This document shows, piece after piece, positions 7,936 to 22,497 of a stretch of 22,497 nucleotides of DNA; position 1 is the first letter of the stretch; each line of letters begins with the position of its first letter. The notes beneath the pieces are model-generated. The model searched no databases, was not told the DNA's origin, and saw nothing but the letters and a program-made list of their open reading frames with translations. The position numbers were made by a program, and so were the translations under genes. The stretch is from a virus: the IMG/VR virus record IMGVR_UViG_3300044608_000949, positions 1 to 22,497 of that record; one strand, written 5' to 3'.

Positions 7936-8076
7936 ATGGACGCGCAAACCGTCGCCGTCATCGCCATCATCCTCGCCGCTGGTAGCGAGATCATCGCGCT
8001 GACCCCGCTCAAGTCGAACAGCTGGATCCAACTGCTGCTGCAGGCACTACGCCTGATGTTTCCCAAGCGTGGCTAA
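7936..8076 (+). CDS. 46-residue single-span membrane peptide, holin candidate
   Basis: The product is MDAQTVAVIAIILAAGSEII followed by a polar turn (ALTPLKSNS) and an amphipathic helix WIQLLLQALRLMFPKRG. The first ~22 residues form a membrane span and the second half could lie on the membrane surface. It starts two bases after the previous stop and overlaps the GTG start of the endolysin by 8 bases, so it belongs to the lysis cassette. Small hydrophobic proteins here are commonly holins, but no family can be named. The second helix ends in basic residues, which favours the C-terminus staying in the cytoplasm. Confidence 0.55.
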   Translation: MDAQTVAVIAIILAAGSEIIALTPLKSNSWIQLLLQALRLMFPKRG

Positions 8077-9130
8077 AGCACCGATCAAACCAAGCGACCT
8101 GTTCCGCTACTGGAAAGGGCTGCCGCATCAAATGGCGGCGATCGTTGAATTGGAAGCGGAGCTGTTAAAGGTTGCACCGGATTTGTTCAATAGAGACCAA
8201 TCGTGGTTCCAGACATGGAGCCAAGACGGCAAGCAGGCTGACCTGGGCGCAGCGCTGCAGTTGATCCAGCAGTTTGAGGGCTGTCACCTTGAGGCTTACC
8301 CCGACCCGCTAAGCGGCGGCGACCCGTGGACCATCGGCTGGGGCACCACGCGCTACAGCGACGGCCGCAAGGTGCAGAAAGGCGACAAGATCAACCGGGT
8401 CGAGGCCGACATGCTGCTGCGCAGCGAGGTCGATCGCATCGCCGAGAAGCTGCGCGCGACCGTGCCGTTCTGGGTAGCGATGAGCGACCAGCAGAAGTGC
8501 GCGCTGATCTCGTTCGCCTACAACCTGGGCTCGGGCTTCTACGGCACCGCCGGGTTCGAGACCATCAGCAAGCGGCTGAAGGCGAAGGAGTGGGCCAAGG
8601 TGCCTGAGGCGCTGCTGCTCTACCGCAACCCTGGAACGGCCGTAGAAGCTGGCCTGCTGCGCCGCAGGCAAGCGGAAGGCAGGCTATGGGGCATTGAGTC
8701 ACAGACCGCCAAGCTGAGCCCTAGCAGCCCGTTCTCAGCGCACATCACGCCCCACATACGGCTAGGCGAGTTTGCCCTTGACCAAGAGGCCCGCAGGTTT
8801 GACCACCAGCACCAGATCGACACAGCCGCCGAGCTGGCCGCGTTCCTTGAGCGGGTGCGTGGCGCGTTCGGTGGTAAGCCGATCGTAATCACATCGGGAT
8901 TCAGGCCGCCGGCCATCAACCGGCAGGTGGGCGGGGCGTCAGGTAGCGAGCACCTGTACGACGCGCCCGGCGTGGGTGCTGTGGACTTCTTCGTGCATGG
9001 CGCGGACATCTACGCGGTCCAGGACTGGTGCGATAAGAACTGGCCCTATAGCGTCGGCTACGGCGCGCCGAAGGGATTTGTTCACCTCGGCATCCGCAAG
9101 GGCAAACCTAAGGCGCGCTGGGAGTATTGA
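8069..9130 (+). CDS. Bifunctional endolysin: GH24 lysozyme plus M15 peptidase
   Basis: This is the lysis enzyme that would cut peptidoglycan at two bonds. After an N-terminal helical segment (~1-58), a phage-type lysozyme domain spans ~60-210: the E of QQFEG (E70), D79 in YPDPL and T88 in WTIGWGTT match the Glu-Asp-Thr catalytic set, and the fold continues through SFAYNLGSG and LLRRRQAEGRLW. A second domain (~230-353) looks like a peptidase M15 family: TSGFRPPAINRQVGG, then SEHLY (H295), AVDFF (D306) and FVHLG (H339), which would be the zinc ligands. The start is GTG inside the preceding gene's end. No signal peptide is seen, so export would need a holin. Confidence 0.85.
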   Translation: MAKAPIKPSDLFRYWKGLPHQMAAIVELEAELLKVAPDLFNRDQSWFQTWSQDGKQADLGAALQLIQQFEGCHLEAYPDPLSGGDPWTIGWGTTRYSDGRKVQKGDKINRVEADMLLRSEVDRIAEKLRATVPFWVAMSDQQKCALISFAYNLGSGFYGTAGFETISKRLKAKEWAKVPEALLLYRNPGTAVEAGLLRRRQAEGRLWGIESQTAKLSPSSPFSAHITPHIRLGEFALDQEARRFDHQHQIDTAAELAAFLERVRGAFGGKPIVITSGFRPPAINRQVGGASGSEHLYDAPGVGAVDFFVHGADIYAVQDWCDKNWPYSVGYGAPKGFVHLGIRKGKPKARWEY

Positions 9131-13212: not shown

Positions 13213-13568
13213 ATCACCGTGCCGCCGGTCGCCTTGGCCAGGCTTGTGGCCGCGGCCTCGGCAGTGGCGCCCGCCTCCTCGATCGCTTTCTGCGTCTTGT
13301 AGTCAGGCTCAATCGCCATCGACACATACGCGTCACCGCCGCTGGCCGGCTCCTTGCGCCATCCGCTGATCCGCATCGGGATGTTGCCCCGATCGTTCGG
13401 CGTGGCGTTCATTAGGTAGTTGGCCATCGCATACGCCTGATCAGCCGGCACGCTCACCACGCCGTCGTACATCGGGTAGTTCTTGCTGGCGTCGTACCGG
13501 TCGCGCAGCCGCTCGCGCAACTTTTGCTCGGTGTTTCTGAACAGTGCGCCGTTTGCTTTGAAGGTCAT
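13194..13568 (-). CDS. OB-like ssDNA-binding protein candidate with acidic tip
   Basis: The 124-residue product resembles small phage SSB-like proteins: GALFRNTEQKLR at the start, YPMYDGVVSVPAD, then IPMRISGWRKEPASGGDAYV with SMAIEP, the alternating strands and SGW.K pattern typical of that group. The C-terminal ~35 residues form a low-complexity Ala/Thr linker ending in the acidic tip QDDVF. Bacterial SSB proteins end in an acidic tip that recruits partners, so this tail would do the same. It lies downstream of RecT-like and RecE-like genes in one operon, which fits a recombination role. Binding residues cannot be proven from sequence. Confidence 0.65.
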   Translation of the reverse strand: MTFKANGALFRNTEQKLRERLRDRYDASKNYPMYDGVVSVPADQAYAMANYLMNATPNDRGNIPMRISGWRKEPASGGDAYVSMAIEPDYKTQKAIEEAGATAEAAATSLAKATGGTVIQDDVF

Positions 13569-13756
13569 TGTGAATCGTGGGTGATGGTGTTGGCCTTCTC
13601 GTATTGCTCAACCTCGGCCAATGGGTAGAGCACGAAACCGGGCGTCCTGAAATAGGCGGGGCCCTTGCCCGCCTTGCGCCAGCGCATCAGCGTGTCAGGG
13701 TGCAACCCCCACCGCTGCGCCAGCTGCGGCGCGGTCAGATAATCAGAAGAGGTCAT
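13565..13756 (-). CDS. Small HTH protein (excisionase/MerR-like)
   Basis: The 63-residue product contains SSDYLTAPQLAQRWGLHPDT and LMRWRKAGKGPAYFRTPGFV, the helix-turn-helix and wing pattern of HTH_17/excisionase-like proteins (TAxQLAxRWGxxxxTLxRWRxxGxGP). A basic wing ends in LYPLAEVEQYE. It is nested between the RecT-like and SSB-like genes and overlaps both (14 and 4 bases). It could regulate this operon, the divergent promoter at 15246-15295, or act as a recombination directionality factor, although no integrase is visible in this window. Confidence 0.7.
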   Translation of the reverse strand: MTSSDYLTAPQLAQRWGLHPDTLMRWRKAGKGPAYFRTPGFVLYPLAEVEQYEKANTITHDSQ

Positions 13757-14405: not shown

Positions 14406-15244
14406 CAGTAGGTCTCGATCTCAGGTGGGTTAGGCAGTGAACCATCAGCCCGCGGCCGCATCCATGCGGGCAGGCTGAGCGGTTCGATCTGGTCGCTGTA
14501 TCCGGGCCAAGTGTTGTTGGTCTTGCATTCGACCAGCCGGGCCAGGTCCCGTGCAGCGGTCTCGGCGCCGATCTGGATCATCTCCGCATCGGCGGCGTAG
14601 ACGGCCACGGCATAGGGCGGCTTCTTCTCCACACAGATGAAGATGAACTGAGCGGGCCGGTGACCGGTGGCCGCCTCAACCCCGTCGAGGTACCAGCTGG
14701 CCTGACAGTGGTAGCGATAATTCGCCACGCTCCGCTGGAAGCCGCTCGGGCTGGCATCCTCGGTTGTCTTCAGGTCGATGATCAGGTTGCCGTCATTGGT
14801 CAGCCAGTCCGGCCGGCACTTGCATTCGGCGCCAGTGGTCGGATCGGTCCACATATGCGTTGTCTCGGCCTTGCCTTGCCAATGCAGCAGCATCGCCGCG
14901 GCCGGGTGGCGCCACACCGATTCGGCCATGCGGCTGATGGTGGCGCGGTCGTCGGCGTCGATCAGCTCGCGGCCACCGGCTTCAGCTTCGAACTCAAGCC
15001 AGCGGGCTTTGCCTTCCTTGGTCCGGCGATCAACCACCGGCGTGGTGATGTAACGATTCTCAAACTGATCAGCCTCAAGCGTCAGCGTGTGAACAGCGGT
15101 CCCGAGCCGCATCGCATCAGTTGGCTCAGTCGGCACCCGGTTCGGGTCGATGTAGCGCGCCCAGTAGTGCAGCGGGCTGCGGGCGATGAGATCCAGATGA
15201 GATTTTGAGATGGCGGGGTGGGCGTGGTAGTCGGCGTTCTCCAT
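14405..15244 (-). CDS. RecE-like exonuclease (PD-(D/E)XK fold)
   Basis: The 279-residue product is a 5'-3' exonuclease candidate that feeds the RecT-like protein. It has RLGTAVHTL (H52), an acidic patch near ELIDADDR, RPDWLTNDGNLIIDLKTTED (D146, D157-L-K159, the D-x-K core), and YRYHCQASWYLDG (Tyr 177, Gln 181), the ordered residues of RecE/Cas4/DUF3799-type nucleases. It is shorter than E. coli RecE, matching the phage-size nuclease domain alone. As the first gene of the operon it starts at 15244, in the divergent spacer, with a leader of about 15-20 nt if the promoter at 15267-15274 is used. Confidence 0.8.
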   Translation of the reverse strand: MENADYHAHPAISKSHLDLIARSPLHYWARYIDPNRVPTEPTDAMRLGTAVHTLTLEADQFENRYITTPVVDRRTKEGKARWLEFEAEAGGRELIDADDRATISRMAESVWRHPAAAMLLHWQGKAETTHMWTDPTTGAECKCRPDWLTNDGNLIIDLKTTEDASPSGFQRSVANYRYHCQASWYLDGVEAATGHRPAQFIFICVEKKPPYAVAVYAADAEMIQIGAETAARDLARLVECKTNNTWPGYSDQIEPLSLPAWMRPRADGSLPNPPEIETY

Positions 15245-15245
15245 G

Positions 15246-15295
15246 GGTTGCAGAGACTTGCGCCATCCTATAGGGTGTTGCTGCCAGATGCAACC
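15246..15295. promoter_or_regulatory. Perfectly symmetric divergent promoter/operator
   Basis: The left arm GGTTGCA (15246-15252) and right arm TGCAACC (15289-15295) are inverted repeats around a CCTATAGG palindrome (15267-15274). All three share the same centre, and the arm-to-palindrome distance is exactly 14 nt on both sides. TATAGG reads as a -10-like box on either strand, with TTGCAG (plus) and TTGCAT (minus) at a 15-nt spacing as -35-like boxes. It would fire the RecE-like operon to the left and the helicase operon to the right. An operator for a dimeric or tetrameric regulator is the alternative, and both could be true. Confidence 0.5.
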
Positions 15296-15296
15296 T

Positions 15297-17555
15297 ATGA
15301 CCTACTCAGACTTCCTAGCCTCAAAGTCCACCGCCTGCCCTGCAGTTGGGTTTGACCCGCAGCGGTTCACGGCGCCGCTGTTCCCGTTTCAGCGTGACAT
15401 CGTGACCATGGCCTGCCGCGTTGGCAGGTTCTGCATCTGGGCCGATTGCGGCATGGGCAAAACCGCCATGCAGCTGGAATGGGCATCCCAGGTTTGCCGT
15501 CACACCAAAGGCAACGTCCTTGTCCTGGCCCCCCTGGCAGTCGCACACCAGACCGTCCGAGAGGGCAGCAAGTTCGGCATCCCATGCGTGTTCGCTGCAA
15601 CCCAGGGCGAGGTCAAGCCCGGCATCACGATTACCAACTACGAGAAGCTTGGCCACTTCGACCCGGCCGCCTTCGATGGCGTGGTGCTCGATGAGAGCAG
15701 CATCCTTAAGGCGTACACCGGCAAGATCCGCAGCCAGATCATCGAGTCATTCAGCCAGACGCCATTCCGGCTGGCCTGTTCAGCAACACCGGCGCCGAAC
15801 GATCACATGGAGCTGGGCAACCATGCCGAGTTCATCGGCGTGATGACCAGGACCGAGATGCTGGCGATGTTCTTTGTCCACGACGGCGGCGATACCAGCA
15901 AATGGCGCCTCAAGGGTCACGCTCAGTCGAAGTTCTGGGAGTGGGTCTGCAGCTGGGCCGTCACCATTCGCAAGCCATCAGATCTGGGCTACGACGACGG
16001 CAGCTTCATCCTGCCCGAGCTATCCATTCAAGACTGCACGGTCGAGACACCACGCGAGGCGATGGCTGACGACGCCGGCCAGATGGCGCTGTTTGCCATG
16101 GAAGCCCGCACCCTGAGCGATCAGCGACATGTACGCAAAGCATCGCTGCAGATGCGCGTTAATGCAGCCGCAGCCCTGGCCAACAACAGCACCGAGCAAT
16201 GGCTGATCTGGTGTGATCTCAACGACGAATCCAAAGCGCTTACTGCCGCGGTTGATGGCGCGGTGGAGGTGTCAGGCAGCGACAGTGACGATCACAAGCA
16301 ACAGTCCGCCATCGACTTTCAAGATGGCAAGATCCGCGTGCTGGTCAGCAAGCCCAGCATCTTCGGATTCGGACTCAACTTTCAAGGCTGCCACAACGTC
16401 GCCTTTGTTGGACTGTCGCACAGCTACGAGGCGTTCTATCAAGCCATCCGCCGGTGCTGGCGATTCGGGCAGCAGCACCCGGTCAACGCGCACATCATCT
16501 ACGACGTGGCCGAAGGCCGCGTGATCGACAACATCCGCCGCAAAGAAGCGGACAGCATCGCAATGGCTGAATCAATGGTCACCATCATGAAGCAAACCAC
16601 CATGGAACAACTGAAAAAGATCCAGCGCCAAGTGGCGCCACACATCACTGAGCACAAGTCCGGCGACAACTGGGACATGTACATGGGCGACTGCGTTGAG
16701 AGCATTAAGCAACTTGACTCAGACAGCATTCACTACAGCATTTTCAGTCCGCCGTTCGCGTCGCTTTACACCTACTCGAACAGCGACCGGGACATGGGCA
16801 ACAGCCGTAACGATCAGGAGTTTTTCGATCACTTCGTCTACTTGGCCAAGGAGCTGCATCGCGTGCTGATGCCAGGCCGGTTGATCAGCTTCCACTGCAT
16901 GAATCTGCCCAGCAGCAAAGAGCGCGACGGCTTCATCGGCGTGAAGGACTTTCGCGGCGACATGCTGCGCATCTTTCAGGCGGCAGGATTCGTCTTTCAC
17001 TCAGAGGTCTGCATTTGGAAGGATCCCGTCACCGCCATGCAGCGCACCAAGGCGATCGGGCTGCTGCACAAGCAGATCCGCAAGGACTCAGCTCTGAGCC
17101 GTCAAGGCATCCCCGACTACCTGGTCACGGTGCGCAAACTGGGCGACAACCCCGAGCCATGCGCTGGCCCGTTCACTGAGTTTGCCGGCGAGAACCCACC
17201 AGCTAAGACTGGTGACGCCATCAAAGACAGCATCAACATCTGGCAGCGCTACGCCAGCCCGGTGTGGATGGACATCAACCCATCCGACACCCTGCAATAC
17301 CGCAGCGCTCGCGCCAATGACGACGAGCGCCACATCTGCCCGCTGCAGCTTGAGGTGATCCGCCGTGGTCTGCAGCTGTGGAGCAACCCAGGCGATCTGG
17401 TGCTTAGCCCGTTTGCCGGTATCGGCAGCGAGGGCTATGTCAGCCTGCAGATGGGTCGCCGGTTCGTTGGCTTCGAGCTGAAGCCCAGCTACTTCAACTG
17501 CGCAGTCAAAAACCTGAACGATTGCGAGGCCATTACGCAGGCAGCGCTGCTGTGA
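15297..17555 (+). CDS. SNF2-like helicase fused to a DNA methyltransferase
   Basis: Numbered from ATG 15297 (752 residues), residues ~1-440 are an SNF2-type ATPase: Walker A GMGKT at 52-56, DESS at 132-135 (in VVLDESSILKAYTG), SAT at 162-164 and QAIRRCWRFGQ at 382-392. Residues ~455-752 are an N4-C/N6-A-type methyltransferase with SPPF at 484-487 (motif IV), FASLYTYSNSDRDMGN after it, and SPFAGIGSEGY at 704-714 (motif I). The motif order, IV before I, is that of the beta class. An in-frame ATG at 15288 is an alternative start. It may methylate phage DNA while unwinding or tracking it, to evade host restriction. Each domain resembles phage proteins I know; the target is unknown. GTGA overlap with the next gene. 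Confidence 0.85.
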   Translation: MTYSDFLASKSTACPAVGFDPQRFTAPLFPFQRDIVTMACRVGRFCIWADCGMGKTAMQLEWASQVCRHTKGNVLVLAPLAVAHQTVREGSKFGIPCVFAATQGEVKPGITITNYEKLGHFDPAAFDGVVLDESSILKAYTGKIRSQIIESFSQTPFRLACSATPAPNDHMELGNHAEFIGVMTRTEMLAMFFVHDGGDTSKWRLKGHAQSKFWEWVCSWAVTIRKPSDLGYDDGSFILPELSIQDCTVETPREAMADDAGQMALFAMEARTLSDQRHVRKASLQMRVNAAAALANNSTEQWLIWCDLNDESKALTAAVDGAVEVSGSDSDDHKQQSAIDFQDGKIRVLVSKPSIFGFGLNFQGCHNVAFVGLSHSYEAFYQAIRRCWRFGQQHPVNAHIIYDVAEGRVIDNIRRKEADSIAMAESMVTIMKQTTMEQLKKIQRQVAPHITEHKSGDNWDMYMGDCVESIKQLDSDSIHYSIFSPPFASLYTYSNSDRDMGNSRNDQEFFDHFVYLAKELHRVLMPGRLISFHCMNLPSSKERDGFIGVKDFRGDMLRIFQAAGFVFHSEVCIWKDPVTAMQRTKAIGLLHKQIRKDSALSRQGIPDYLVTVRKLGDNPEPCAGPFTEFAGENPPAKTGDAIKDSINIWQRYASPVWMDINPSDTLQYRSARANDDERHICPLQLEVIRRGLQLWSNPGDLVLSPFAGIGSEGYVSLQMGRRFVGFELKPSYFNCAVKNLNDCEAITQAALL

Positions 17556-18964: not shown

Positions 18965-19265
18965 CCTGCGCATTTTTCGCAATCAGGTCGGCAGCCTGCC
19001 CGACCCACGCACCGGTCGGCTTGTCACCTTTGGCCTCGCCCGTGGCTCAGCAGACCTCATCGGTTGGCGTACCGTCACCATTGGCCCAGAACACATCGGC
19101 ATGCGGCTGGCCGTGTTCACGTCCATCGAGGTCAAGACACCCACCGGGCGGGTCAGGCCTGAACAGTCAGCCTGGCTCTCTACCGTGAACGATGCCGGTG
19201 GCCTCGCCGGCGTCGCGCGATCCGTGTCAGACGCGCACGCCATCATCCAATCCGTCAGCCAATAA
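18903..19265 (+). CDS. VRR-NUC nuclease
   Basis: The product is a compact nuclease of the VRR-NUC/PD-(D/E)XK group. Numbered from ATG 18888 (125 residues; GTG 18903 gives 120), E10 in NAETTLQQQI, GSADLIGW with D56, IEVKTPTGR with E81 and K83, and PEQSAWL with Gln 93 form the expected active-site set. Such proteins cleave branched structures, for example Holliday junctions, and phage copies often sit near helicase and primase genes. It overlaps the helicase gene by 62-77 bases in a different frame. No Shine-Dalgarno is clear before either start, so translation may depend on the helicase's ribosomes. Confidence 0.75.
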   Translation: MANAETTLQQQIRLALGSRSDLRIFRNQVGSLPDPRTGRLVTFGLARGSADLIGWRTVTIGPEHIGMRLAVFTSIEVKTPTGRVRPEQSAWLSTVNDAGGLAGVARSVSDAHAIIQSVSQ

Positions 19266-19322
19266 ACAGGCCGGCGGTGCTCGACACACCCCGGCCCTGG
19301 CCCACAGCCCTTACCTGCAAGC

Positions 19323-21431
19323 ATGGCAAGACTACCAAAACCTGTTGACTTCAGCGCCGCTCGTCAGTTCCTGAAGATCCTCGGCAAGACCAAAGAAGCC
19401 ACCAGACTCCGCGCTTTCTATCCCTCTGGCCACCAGTTCAAGGCTGGTGACTCAGGTCGCAAAGCACCGCCATCAGCCGCCATCATCGATGAATGGCAGG
19501 CCGAGGGCCGCGGCGTCTACGTCGTCATCAACGACGGCGGTGACACCGACTCAGAGATCACCGTTTGCCGCGCCATCTTCTGTGAATGGGACAACCGCCC
19601 CAAAGATTGGCAGGTGACCGCATGGCAGGATCTGCAGCTCCCAGAGCCATCGCTGCAGGTTGACACCGGCGGCAAGTCGATTCACACCTACTGGGTGCTC
19701 GCTGATCCGATCGCGCCCGATCAGTGGCGCTCGATGCAGAAGCGCCTCCTTGAGCACGCCGATGCAGATCGCACGCTCAAAAACCCCTCGCGGGTCATGC
19801 GCCTGCCTGGCACGTATCACATCGGCCCAGACGGTCACCCAGGTCAGCAGGTGGCCATCATCCATCAATCAGATCTCACCTACACCACAGACGAACTCAA
19901 TGCCTGCCTGCCAGATGAACAAACACACACCCGCCTGATAAGCGCCAAGCAATACACCGACCACACACCCCGCACCCTCTCAGACATCCAGCAGGCCCTC
20001 GACTGCATTCCGGCAGCGGTCCCCAAGTCCGGCCAATACCCCTTCTTCCGCAATCTGCTATGGGGCCTCATCGCCGCATGCGAGGAAGCCGGCAGCACCG
20101 CTGATCAGGCCGTCGCCATGATCCAGCGGCACAGCCCAGACTTTGCCGAAGCCCAGCAGGTGGCCCGCAGCAACTGCGCATCAGTCACCGCCGGCACGTT
20201 TTGGTATTTCGCTCGTGAACAGGGCTGGCGCCCGCCGCGCACTATCCCGCAGGTCATTGCCGATCACCCGCCCACGGCCATCACACCCATCGACCCGCAG
20301 CCGCTCAAGCGCATGGAGGCGAACGAGCTGCTGCAGCAACTACGGGACGCCGGCAACCTTCGATACAACATCTTCACACAACAGATCGAACGCAACGGCA
20401 AAGTCCTAGAAGGCGCTGAGCATTTCTATCTCGAGATCGCAGAACGCGGCGGCAAGATCTCAAAAGAGACCGCGCTCGACTGCCTGGTCAAGATCGCCAA
20501 AGCGAACCCCTACGACCCGATCAAGAACTACCTGAACCACGTAGCCGCGCACGAACAGCCCACCTACATCGACCGGCTCGCATCGACCTACCTGCGGCCT
20601 GAAGACGCAAACACACCCGATCCCACCCTCTATGACCACATGATCCGCTGCACCCTCATTGGTGCAGTGCGCCGCATCTACGAACCCGGTGCCAAGCACG
20701 ACAACGCAACGGTCCTCATGGGTGAACAGGGCGCCCGCAAGTCATCTTTCTGGGCTGCGATCGGAGGCGAGTTCTTCTCCGATGCACTCAAAGACATCGG
20801 CTCGAAGGACGACCTGATGGTCCTACATCGCAGCTGGATTATGGAGTGGGCTGAGTTGGATCACATCACCAGCAAGAAACACGCCGGTCAGGTGAAGGCA
20901 TTCCTAAGCCAATCAACCGACCTGTTCCGCATCCCTTACGGCAAGGCCACTGAAGCATTCCCGCGCCGCTGCATCATCGTCGGCTCAACCAACCGCGACA
21001 CCGGCCTGCTAGTTGACGAGACAGGCAACCGCAGGTTCTGGGTCATACCCGTCACCTGCACCCTCGCCAAACCGATCGACGTGTCATCGCTGCTCAAGGA
21101 GCGCGACGCTATTTGGTCGGCAGCGGTAGCCGCCTACCGCAACGGCGAGCCAAGCGTGCTCACCGCTGAACAGGAGGCGATGGTGGCCCAGCAGAACGAG
21201 GACTACCTGGTCGAGTCGCCATGGCGCGCACCCATCGAGGCGTGGCTGCTGGCACCCCATAACAAGTCCAAGGACATCACGACCGACGTGCTCCTGGCCG
21301 AAGCCGTGGCCAAGCCGGTTGAACGTCAGACCCGGTCCGATCAGATGCAGGTTGCCAGCATCCTGCGCGACCTCGGGTACCAACGAAAGAAGACCCGAGT
21401 CGATGGCATTCTCAAATGGGTCTACTTTTGA
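19323..21431 (+). CDS. Replication protein: RepB-type primase fused to VapE-like ATPase
   Basis: The 702-residue product joins two replication modules. The N-terminal ~200 residues hold primase motifs: AIFCEWDNRPKDW (E88/D90 metal site), VDTGGKSIHTYWVL (S119-x-H121) and RVMRLPGTYH, as in RepB/AEP primases. From ~330 to ~580 there is a VapE/DUF5906-like ATPase: DNATVLMGEQGARKSSF (P-loop 467-474), WIMEWAELDHITSK (Walker B-like acidic stretch), KAFLSQSTDLFRIPYG, CIIVGSTNRDTGLLVDETGN and RRFWVIPV. The P-loop reads GEQGARKS, with Arg where a third Gly is more usual. The tail (~580-702) is helical. It probably starts phage DNA synthesis at the iteron block immediately downstream. Weak or absent Shine-Dalgarno before ATG 19323. 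Confidence 0.8.
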   Translation: MARLPKPVDFSAARQFLKILGKTKEATRLRAFYPSGHQFKAGDSGRKAPPSAAIIDEWQAEGRGVYVVINDGGDTDSEITVCRAIFCEWDNRPKDWQVTAWQDLQLPEPSLQVDTGGKSIHTYWVLADPIAPDQWRSMQKRLLEHADADRTLKNPSRVMRLPGTYHIGPDGHPGQQVAIIHQSDLTYTTDELNACLPDEQTHTRLISAKQYTDHTPRTLSDIQQALDCIPAAVPKSGQYPFFRNLLWGLIAACEEAGSTADQAVAMIQRHSPDFAEAQQVARSNCASVTAGTFWYFAREQGWRPPRTIPQVIADHPPTAITPIDPQPLKRMEANELLQQLRDAGNLRYNIFTQQIERNGKVLEGAEHFYLEIAERGGKISKETALDCLVKIAKANPYDPIKNYLNHVAAHEQPTYIDRLASTYLRPEDANTPDPTLYDHMIRCTLIGAVRRIYEPGAKHDNATVLMGEQGARKSSFWAAIGGEFFSDALKDIGSKDDLMVLHRSWIMEWAELDHITSKKHAGQVKAFLSQSTDLFRIPYGKATEAFPRRCIIVGSTNRDTGLLVDETGNRRFWVIPVTCTLAKPIDVSSLLKERDAIWSAAVAAYRNGEPSVLTAEQEAMVAQQNEDYLVESPWRAPIEAWLLAPHNKSKDITTDVLLAEAVAKPVERQTRSDQMQVASILRDLGYQRKKTRVDGILKWVYF

Positions 21432-21438
21432 GACAGTC

Positions 21439-21464
21439 GAGTCTCGTGAGTCTCAAAGTGAGAC
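21439..21464. repeat. GAGTCTC direct repeat and TGAGAC hairpin
   Basis: GAGTCTC occurs at 21439-21445 and 21448-21454, 9 bp apart. GTCTCA at 21450-21455 and TGAGAC at 21459-21464 form a 6-bp stem with a 3-nt loop. Further TGAGAC-type sequences occur at the primase stop (21429) and GTCTCA at 21657. This may be a second iteron family or a terminator-like hairpin (no T-run). Confidence 0.55.
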
Positions 21465-21472
21465 AGGCATGT

Positions 21473-21502
21473 GTTCCTACCTGCTGGGGAGTAGGTGGGA
21501 AC
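21473..21502. repeat. Iteron hairpin: GTTCCTACCT and its inverted partner
   Basis: Arm 21473-21482 and arm 21493-21502 pair over 10 bp with one mismatch (a G-U pair if transcribed) around a 10-nt loop. The unit is the same GTTCCTA(C/T) that recurs downstream in direct and inverted orientations. A protein-binding site or a stem that folds single-stranded DNA are both plausible. Confidence 0.6.
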
Positions 21503-21528
21503 ACCGAAACCCTGTCCGCTACTACCTT

Positions 21529-21553
21529 GTTCCTATGTTCCTACTGTTCCTAC
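21529..21553 (+). repeat. Three direct iterons, GTTCCTA(T/C)
   Basis: GTTCCTAT at 21529-21536, GTTCCTAC at 21537-21544 and GTTCCTAC at 21546-21553 follow one another with 8- and 9-bp periods. This is a classic iteron array with sub-helical spacing. Initiators commonly use such arrays; their spacing and copy number can be read directly here. Confidence 0.65.
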
Positions 21554-21579
21554 CTATATAAAAGACCTATATGGAATAT
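21554..21579. other. AT-rich core of the candidate origin
   Basis: Twenty of 26 bases are A or T, with CCTATAT occurring twice (from 21553 and 21566), in a GC-rich genome. It sits directly between the direct iterons and the G-run tract and would be the easiest stretch to melt. It may also hold a promoter-like TATATAA element, so transcription is a competing explanation. Confidence 0.5.
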
Positions 21580-21609
21580 GGGTAGAAGGGGGGGTACAGG
21601 GGCGTGGGG
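21580..21609 (+). other. G-quadruplex-type tract
   Basis: On the plus strand, runs of 3, 7, 4 and 4 G are separated by 5, 4 and 3 bases, which satisfies the four-run G-quadruplex pattern. Single-stranded G4 DNA can pause polymerases or bind helicases; here it directly follows the AT-rich core. It could equally reflect a G-rich bias without function. Confidence 0.5.
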
Positions 21610-21624
21610 AAACTCTTCTAAGGA

Positions 21625-21649
21625 GGTGGGAACGGTGGGAACTAGGAAC
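21625..21649 (-). repeat. Three inverted iterons, GGTGGGAAC/TAGGAAC
   Basis: GGTGGGAAC at 21625-21633 and at 21634-21642, then TAGGAAC at 21643-21649, are inverse copies of the GTTCCTA unit with one variant base in the first two. They mirror the direct iterons on the far side of the AT-rich core. The 9-bp period is conserved. Confidence 0.6.
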
Positions 21650-21685
21650 AAAGTCAGTCTCACCGGCTTCGCCTACCCTTGACCC

Positions 21686-22366
21686 ATGGCAGGCGGCATC
21701 TCCATCGACCTCACCAGCGACCTTGGCAAGGCCGAGGCATGGTCGGCTGCGCTGCTCAAGCAGCTGCCATTCGCCACCAGCAAGGCGCTCAACGACACCG
21801 CATTCGATGCGCGCACGTCACTGTCCGGTGCCACACGCCAATACTTCGACCGGCCCACGTCATTCACCCAGAAGGGCTTCGGCGTCGAGAAGAGCACCAA
21901 GCGTGACCTAGAGGTGATCGTTGGCGCAGAGGCCAAGCGCGCTCGCTACCTGCGCACACAGATCACAGGTGGCGCACGTAGCCAGAAAGGCTTTGAGCGG
22001 TTGTTCCTTGCGCAGATCACAGAATCAGCGCAGATTCCTCGCAACAGTCAGTTCATACCCACCTCCCTTGTCAAGCTCAATGCATCCGGCAACGTGAGCC
22101 TCGCCACGCTCAAGCGCATTAAGCAGGGCCTGAGTAGCAACCCCCAGGGTGGCTTCTTCGTTGGCACCCCTAAAGGGGGCGACCGCCCTGCTGGTATCTA
22201 CAGACGCAGTAAGGGTCAACTGTTCCCATACTTCATCGCCATTGATCAGGCAGCGCAGTATCAGCCCCGCTTCCCGATGCTTGACGTAGTTGGCAAGGTC
22301 TATCAGAGGCGCTATGCGAGCTACTTCAAGACAGCACTCGAGCGCGCACTCGCGACAGCACGCTAG
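21686..22366 (+). CDS. Putative virion structural protein (minor tail/connector type)
   Basis: The 226-residue product contains LLKQLPFATSKALNDTAFDA, then YFDRPTSFTQKGFGVEKST, RARYLRTQITGGARSQKGFE and a C-terminal basic helix YFKTALERALATAR. I recall the DRPTSFTQK and TGGARSQKGFE-like segments in phage proteins annotated as minor structural or hypothetical, near head-tail genes (similar in outline to minor tail protein Z). It has no enzymatic motif. Its location past the replication genes suggests the start of the morphogenesis module. No Shine-Dalgarno precedes the ATG; a 15-codon leader frame ends 3 bases upstream. Confidence in the role is low, in the CDS high. Confidence 0.65.
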   Translation: MAGGISIDLTSDLGKAEAWSAALLKQLPFATSKALNDTAFDARTSLSGATRQYFDRPTSFTQKGFGVEKSTKRDLEVIVGAEAKRARYLRTQITGGARSQKGFERLFLAQITESAQIPRNSQFIPTSLVKLNASGNVSLATLKRIKQGLSSNPQGGFFVGTPKGGDRPAGIYRRSKGQLFPYFIAIDQAAQYQPRFPMLDVVGKVYQRRYASYFKTALERALATAR

Positions 22367-22497
22367 AAGGCGCTGCAATGGGCATGGGCCATGCCTTGCG
22401 TGGTTTGCATCATCAACGCGCAATCGTCGGCCGCGACGACGCGCGCCGGCCGCATTGCGGGTCCTTCCGGGGCCAATGTGCATGGGTCGTCCAAACG
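22367..22497. other. GC-rich palindromic region at the window edge, no gene assigned
   Basis: In addition to the palindrome at 22381-22395 there are CGCAAT/ATTGCG arms (22419-22424 and 22454-22459) around two CGGCCG palindromes (22428-22433, 22447-22452), followed by GGGTCCTTCCGGGG from 22459. I associate the last motif, from memory, with sequence just upstream of phage terminase genes. Two plus-strand frames (from ATG 22378 and 22391) stay open to the edge but neither resembles a known protein, so no gene is called. Confidence 0.35.
22381..22395. repeat. 15-bp perfect palindrome
   Basis: GGCATGG and CCATGCC flank a single G, 14 bases after the preceding stop. Together with the longer GC-rich inverted repeats at 22419-22459 it gives this end of the window a strong secondary-structure character. 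It could be an operator or packaging-site element. Confidence 0.5.

Follow-up and report, generated by a model that had tools for sequence, protein, structure and literature searches.

What is the role of the short repeats found behind the primase gene of this virus? The window, i.e., the whole 22,497-base virus record analyzed here, is an incomplete genome fragment (22.5 kb), in which a 254-bp intergenic gap separates the primase gene (19323–21431) from a minor tail protein gene and holds the repeat block. A sequence-only reading had proposed that this block is a replication origin lying beside its primase, made of iterons, an AT-rich stretch and a G-quadruplex. Comparative evidence strongly supports the origin itself, but neither the G-quadruplex nor the part of the protein put forward as the DNA binder. 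From the sequences compared, the block is very probably the iteron replication origin of a freshwater picocyanobacterial siphophage, with the adjacent upstream PrimPol–VapE protein as its initiator.

The repeat block and its layout in relatives

The main features of the locus are the following:

19323..21431, + strand: initiator gene, 702 aa, with PrimPol (AEP), VapE-type helicase and C-terminal winged-helix domains (profile and structure matches)
21213..21428, + strand: C-terminal winged-helix domain, aa 631–702, the presumed iteron reader (model, structural match and co-variation)
21396–21398, + strand: codon of Arg692, a wing residue
21473..21479, + strand: outlying forward iteron GTTCCTA (the outlying pair is present in relatives too)
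21496..21502, − strand: outlying inverse iteron TGGGAAC, with one mismatch (word search)
21529..21552, + strand: three tandem forward iterons GTTCCTA, at 21529, 21537 and 21546 (word search and relatives)
21553..21579, no strand: AT-rich stretch, presumed unwinding element (AT lies 5′ of the G runs in 81/81 relatives)
21580..21609, + strand: G-rich tract with four G runs, C-rich on the opposite strand (conserved strand bias)
21608..21623, + strand: GGAAACTC...CTAAG box, found in part of the family (13/81 cores)
21627..21649, − strand: three tandem inverse iterons TGGGAAC, TGGGAAC and TAGGAAC, at 21627, 21636 and 21643 (word search)

The four exact forward copies that had been claimed are indeed the only GTTCCTA words on the + strand of the whole window, and all lie inside the block. 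The four inverse copies are present as well, but only the one at 21643 is exact, which is also the single TAGGAAC of the window; those at 21496, 21627 and 21636 carry one mismatch. The forward tandem copies are spaced by 8 and 9 bp, as described, whereas the inverse ones, thought to follow a uniform 9-bp period, lie 9 and 7 bp apart. The picture of four plus four copies flanking the core has to be amended too, since 21473 and 21496 form a separate pair, leaving three forward and three inverse copies around the core. The AT-rich stretch (about 21553–21579) followed by the four-run G tract, and the location of the repeats directly downstream of the primase-ATPase gene, which ends at 21431, were correctly read. 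A tandem pair combined with an inverted tandem pair of one 8-mer reaches a score of 22/24 only at the block, the best value elsewhere in the window being 20. Single-word counts are weaker evidence: the best exact 7-mer occurs five times in the block, as compared with four times at most in 998 of 1000 shuffles, and when one mismatch is allowed the block is not outstanding. GTCTC/GAGAC words are also seen on either side of the putative origin block (21441, 21450, 21460 and 21657 in the window), and recur there in close relatives.

Relatives were gathered by protein, and 103 of these loci are non-redundant with respect to the DNA that follows the gene. Inward-facing tandem repeats score at least 21/24 in 73 of these 103 relatives, versus none of the 304 coding windows taken from the same loci; the mean score is 21.4 in relatives and 17.7 in coding DNA, and dinucleotide shuffles reach 20 at most. 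About 30 of the 103 loci score below 21, some of them with degenerate repeats. The closest relatives keep the same order of forward tandem iterons, AT-rich stretch, G-rich tract and inverse tandem iterons. This comparative evidence makes chance untenable and confirms that the repeat block is genuine. The sequence-only reading had made its case depend on conservation of the repeats in relatives sharing the primase; across the 103 relatives the architecture is conserved while the word itself varies (GTTCCTA, GTTCCAACC, CGTCCAACC, CTTCCTACC, TTGCTAACC, TGCCCTACC and others). The 5′ part of the iteron word is variable and the other part, C-C-(T/A)-A-C-C-T, is commoner; within one phage the copies change in concert. 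The DNA further downstream varies between relatives, and the element follows the primase gene regardless of which gene comes next.

Own inward-facing repeats are also found after the more distant VapE genes of APSE-1, YeP5, Paenibacillus phage Bob and Staphylococcus phage 2638A, and likewise downstream of the VapE genes of several alphaproteobacterial prophages. Clear iterons were not found downstream of the VapE gene in U5 and Javan630, nor were such repeats found downstream of the gene in one rhodobacterial VapE group. Rhodobacterial VapE-type genes (L265, L267–L275 and similar ones) have a nearly identical wing (KANGWERYRRRDEGG), without clear downstream iterons. When the block DNA itself was compared with phage records, a single weak match was obtained, in Acidovorax phage ACF1, and corresponds to the same element after a distant primase.

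The polar core and other signals

The core was analyzed in the 81 loci with well-placed iterons. On the G-rich strand, the AT block is located on the 5′ side of the G runs in all 81, i.e., in every locus with G runs, and this G-rich strand is the gene strand in 58 loci and the opposite strand in 23. The core is therefore a polar unit oriented independently of the gene, as would not be expected of an RNA element in the primase transcript. An Rfam RNA search of the block gave no match. The conserved traits of the core are the G richness of one strand and a fixed order on it, AT first and then G.

Could the G tract fold as a G-quadruplex and drive origin firing, as a further mechanism within the origin reading? 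Apart from the four-run motif at 21580–21609, the + strand of the window has no G4 motif, and canonical motifs are more frequent in the 81 cores (25%) than in shuffles (7%). Nevertheless, three quarters of the cores have no canonical motif and the number of G runs per core equals that of shuffles (3.53 versus 3.55), the conserved traits being the strand bias and the AT-then-G order. The G-quadruplex, which had been singled out as the distinctive feature of the block, was thus rejected as a conserved feature; it belongs to some members of the family, and its role in origin firing looks improbable. Another motif, GGAAACTC, is found in 13 of the 81 cores as compared with 0.2 in shuffles, with related forms in others; this GGAAACTC/CTCCTAAG box sits between the G tract and the inverse iterons in part of the family.

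Judged by the initiator, Synechococcus phage S-LBS1 comes closest among sequenced phages (64% identity over the C-terminal 55%), and in the genome collection a Cyanobium bin does, which makes a freshwater picocyanobacterium the probable host. In S-LBS1, the minimum of the cumulative GC skew (34,063 of 34,641) falls within about 0.5 kb of the homologous origin block (34.24–34.51 kb). In the window, the detrended minimum lies at 21,095, near the block, in a profile drawn from an incomplete record. A skew minimum close to the site is thus seen in both cases, but S-2L does not fit, with no GC-skew switch at the homologous place. Skew gives weak support as origin evidence, gene direction being a confounder in small phages. 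The end of the S-LBS1 record (L082:34515–34641) repeats sequence from the start of the origin region (about 34264 onward), which may result from the assembly. A DnaA-dependent iteron plasmid origin was also considered, and rejected because no DnaA box (TTWTNCACA, up to one mismatch) lies in or near the block, the search covering 18982–22497.

The initiator and its presumed reading of the iterons

A match to the VapE-type initiator is found in 668 phage records. Residues 16–166 of the protein are predicted to form an AEP primase-polymerase domain, matching the S-2L PrimPol structure (PDB 6zp9, E 5e-33; E 2e-45 by profile). The helicase domain matches PF05272 (aa 416–628, E 2e-65), and aa 388–578 match the SaPI5 PriRep1 structure (PDB 7pds, profile E 6e-49). 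A C-terminal DNA-binding domain is predicted as well: the AlphaFold2 domain model has a winged-helix fold, with a pLDDT of about 97 over the fold, which is also seen in the full-length model, and residue 692 is placed on the first strand of the wing. Its best structural match is PriRep1 with dsDNA (7pds, Z 6.8 over 81 residues), a value approached by other winged helices and thus the best of many at the level of a common fold; Foldseek returned no match for this domain at E ≤ 0.001. The primase N-terminus or the VapE core had been suggested as the DNA-binding part, but both the predicted structure and the co-variation described below point to the C-terminal winged helix as the likely binder.

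For the co-variation analysis, 75 proteins were aligned with their iterons, the DNA frame being set from the DNA alone, except that the frame of one locus (L002) was moved by one base by hand; the ACF1-like relatives (L164–L169) were excluded because their iterons could not be framed with certainty. When position 692 is Arg, the first iteron base is G in 22 of 22 cases; without Arg, G is found in 0 of 53, so that all 75 agree. This pattern was spotted by eye in the same data before the residue-by-base scan, in which Arg692–G1 has the highest APC-corrected mutual information among residue–base pairs (residues 300 onward), and each of the five top-ranking pairs includes a C-terminal-domain residue. 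On a tree built from the helicase only (aa 330–628), the Arg692 and G1 traits each changed six times, and in a Pagel test on this tree the dependent model is far better (LR 39.8, 4 df, p about 5e-8). When the base trait was simulated on the tree, only 2 of 1,939 runs perfectly matched any of 1,153 residue features, which gives a family-wise p of about 0.001. Arg together with G is also found in six loci set aside beforehand (L007, L072 with GATCCGACC, L078, L125, L126 and L141), a small set read by hand, which had been omitted for low score or bad frame. This co-variation speaks strongly for the C-terminal domain setting iteron specificity. In one locus, L071, the helicase falls among those of the TTGCC-type phages, yet the iteron and wing are of the GTCC type; this single case would fit a joint movement of the C-terminal domain and the origin. 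In distant alphaproteobacterial prophages an iteron with G occurs without Arg, and the one-residue rule is therefore limited to the PrimPol–VapE phage family.

These observations also bear on whether the repeats could serve as operators through which a transcription regulator, such as the HTH protein of the phage itself, controls the primase or the tail gene. Short intergenic inverted repeats can indeed be operators, a small HTH_17 protein is encoded at 13565–13756, and initiators may autoregulate too. However, the iteron bases co-vary with an amino acid in the C-terminal domain of the primase itself, the core occurs in both orientations relative to the gene, and the DNA downstream of the block differs among relatives. 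In addition, a search of 21300–21760 revealed neither a sigma-70-like promoter nor a terminator, although cyanophage promoters may differ. Operators are thus quite an unlikely explanation as compared with an origin read by the adjacent initiator.

A bolder extension of the origin reading, which we put forward tentatively and would not rate as an even chance, is that the wing reads the 5′ half of the iteron through a readable and evolvable code (Arg692 for G1). The domain and the origin might then drift or be swapped as a cassette, making the origins of relatives incompatible, and the AT-then-G polarity might mark the priming strand and the direction of the first fork. If true, the incompatible origins of close relatives might, for example, escape origin-directed interference.

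Comparison with known systems and a proposed mechanism

The closest parallels are the SaPI Rep–ori system (SaPI5 PriRep1) and SCCmec Cch2, which share with this locus a homologous VapE-type helicase (the profile match to 7pds given above), a C-terminal DNA-binding domain and iterons directly downstream of the gene (PMC7581432). The C-terminal domain of SaPI Rep recognizes iterons directly downstream of its own gene, and the isolated C-terminal domain of Cch2 binds its putative origin (PMC7581432). A VapE/SaPI Rep-type helicase and short iterons directly downstream of its gene, as a putative origin, are both found here. Unlike SaPI, the present system belongs to a picocyanobacterial phage and combines an S-2L-kind AEP PrimPol N-terminus with other iterons and a polar AT-then-G core; natural variation moreover allows the initiator–iteron contact to be deduced at the residue level.

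The identity of the parts, their homology, layout, conservation and co-variation being established computationally, the steps of initiation can be proposed by analogy with SaPI Rep and SCCmec Cch2. On each side of the core, initiator copies would use their C-terminal winged helix to bind the iterons, which face inward, with Arg692 of the wing contacting the G that opens GTTCCTA. Two inward-facing helicase assemblies would then form around the core, the AT-rich stretch would melt, and the helicase domains would load. The PrimPol domain would finally prime replication on the exposed strand. This may be the C-rich strand of the core, given that the SCCmec primase prefers to start opposite a template C (PMC7581432).

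In cyanophage S-2L, the PrimPol module (PDB 6zp9) shows 33% identity over 91% of the protein, and the initiator has similar neighbors (SSAP, PD-(D/E)XK nuclease, helicase, VRR-NUC, PrimPol). The S-2L iterons are weaker, have another sequence and were missed by the automatic search. After the S-2L PrimPol gene, inverted repeats of the GTGCC type can nevertheless be seen by eye on both sides of an A/G-rich tract (L083:3540–3800); they are a candidate origin and priming template of this 2-aminoadenine phage. The passages of the S-2L study that were searched report no priming on the templates tried, call for the right template and do not mention an origin (PMC8065100). The block described here is a natural template candidate for S-2L-type PrimPols.

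The crenarchaeal plasmid pRN1 raises another possibility, namely a cruciform or stem-loop origin in which the paired arms are recognized rather than the repeat word. Its Rep (AEP, helicase and winged helix) depends on an inverted-repeat element that immediately follows the gene, with inverted arms and an AT-rich middle (PMC4234260), and the two iteron triplets of our block are roughly complementary. The pRN1 origin is described as a stem-loop, without iterons. Copies on the same side of the block resemble one another, however, which pairing does not require, and the tandem spacing matches between sides in just 20 of the 81 loci (8 and 9 versus 9 and 7 bp in the block), which also disfavors a conserved hairpin. 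In the pRN1 stem-loop arms themselves (L342:5083–5190), TGTCCA is repeated in tandem every 9 bp, in inverted orientation on the two sides of the AT-rich middle; pRN1 may hence be of the same iteron kind. Recognition of paired arms is accordingly a shade less probable still than operators. A packaging (pac/cos) or attachment site is hardly credible: a terminase small-subunit gene does lie near the primase in some phages (BL94), but the surroundings of the block in the window showed no terminase gene, the element stays behind the primase gene irrespective of the gene that comes after it, and co-variation with a primase residue is not expected of packaging signals.

Exchange as a module has been described for the Vibrio PLE RepA–ori pair, whose DNA-binding domain and iterons co-vary (PMC8263062). 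PLE differs by its unrelated RepA_N initiator and by iterons of about 30 bp. This RepA_N initiator is not known to carry a helicase or primase domain. The origin type (SaPI) and the idea of co-variation between initiator domain and iterons (SaPI; PLE RepA, PMC8263062) are thus already known. As far as the searched literature shows, with few subscription papers covered, what is new is the origin in this family of cyanophages, the co-variation seen at the residue level in many phages, and a core that is both polar and invertible; no description of the origins of phage VapE-type initiators was found in this mostly subscription-free literature. The set makes the architecture of such origins recognizable, points to the domain that probably reads the DNA, and yields a prediction on one residue (Arg692 with G1) for binding assays.

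Two other features of the window can be mentioned. One ORF (15243–17555) fuses an SF2 helicase and an N6/N4 DNA methyltransferase, which are encoded by separate genes in S-LBS1, and the endolysin (8069–9130) combines phage lysozyme and peptidase M15 domains in a single protein.
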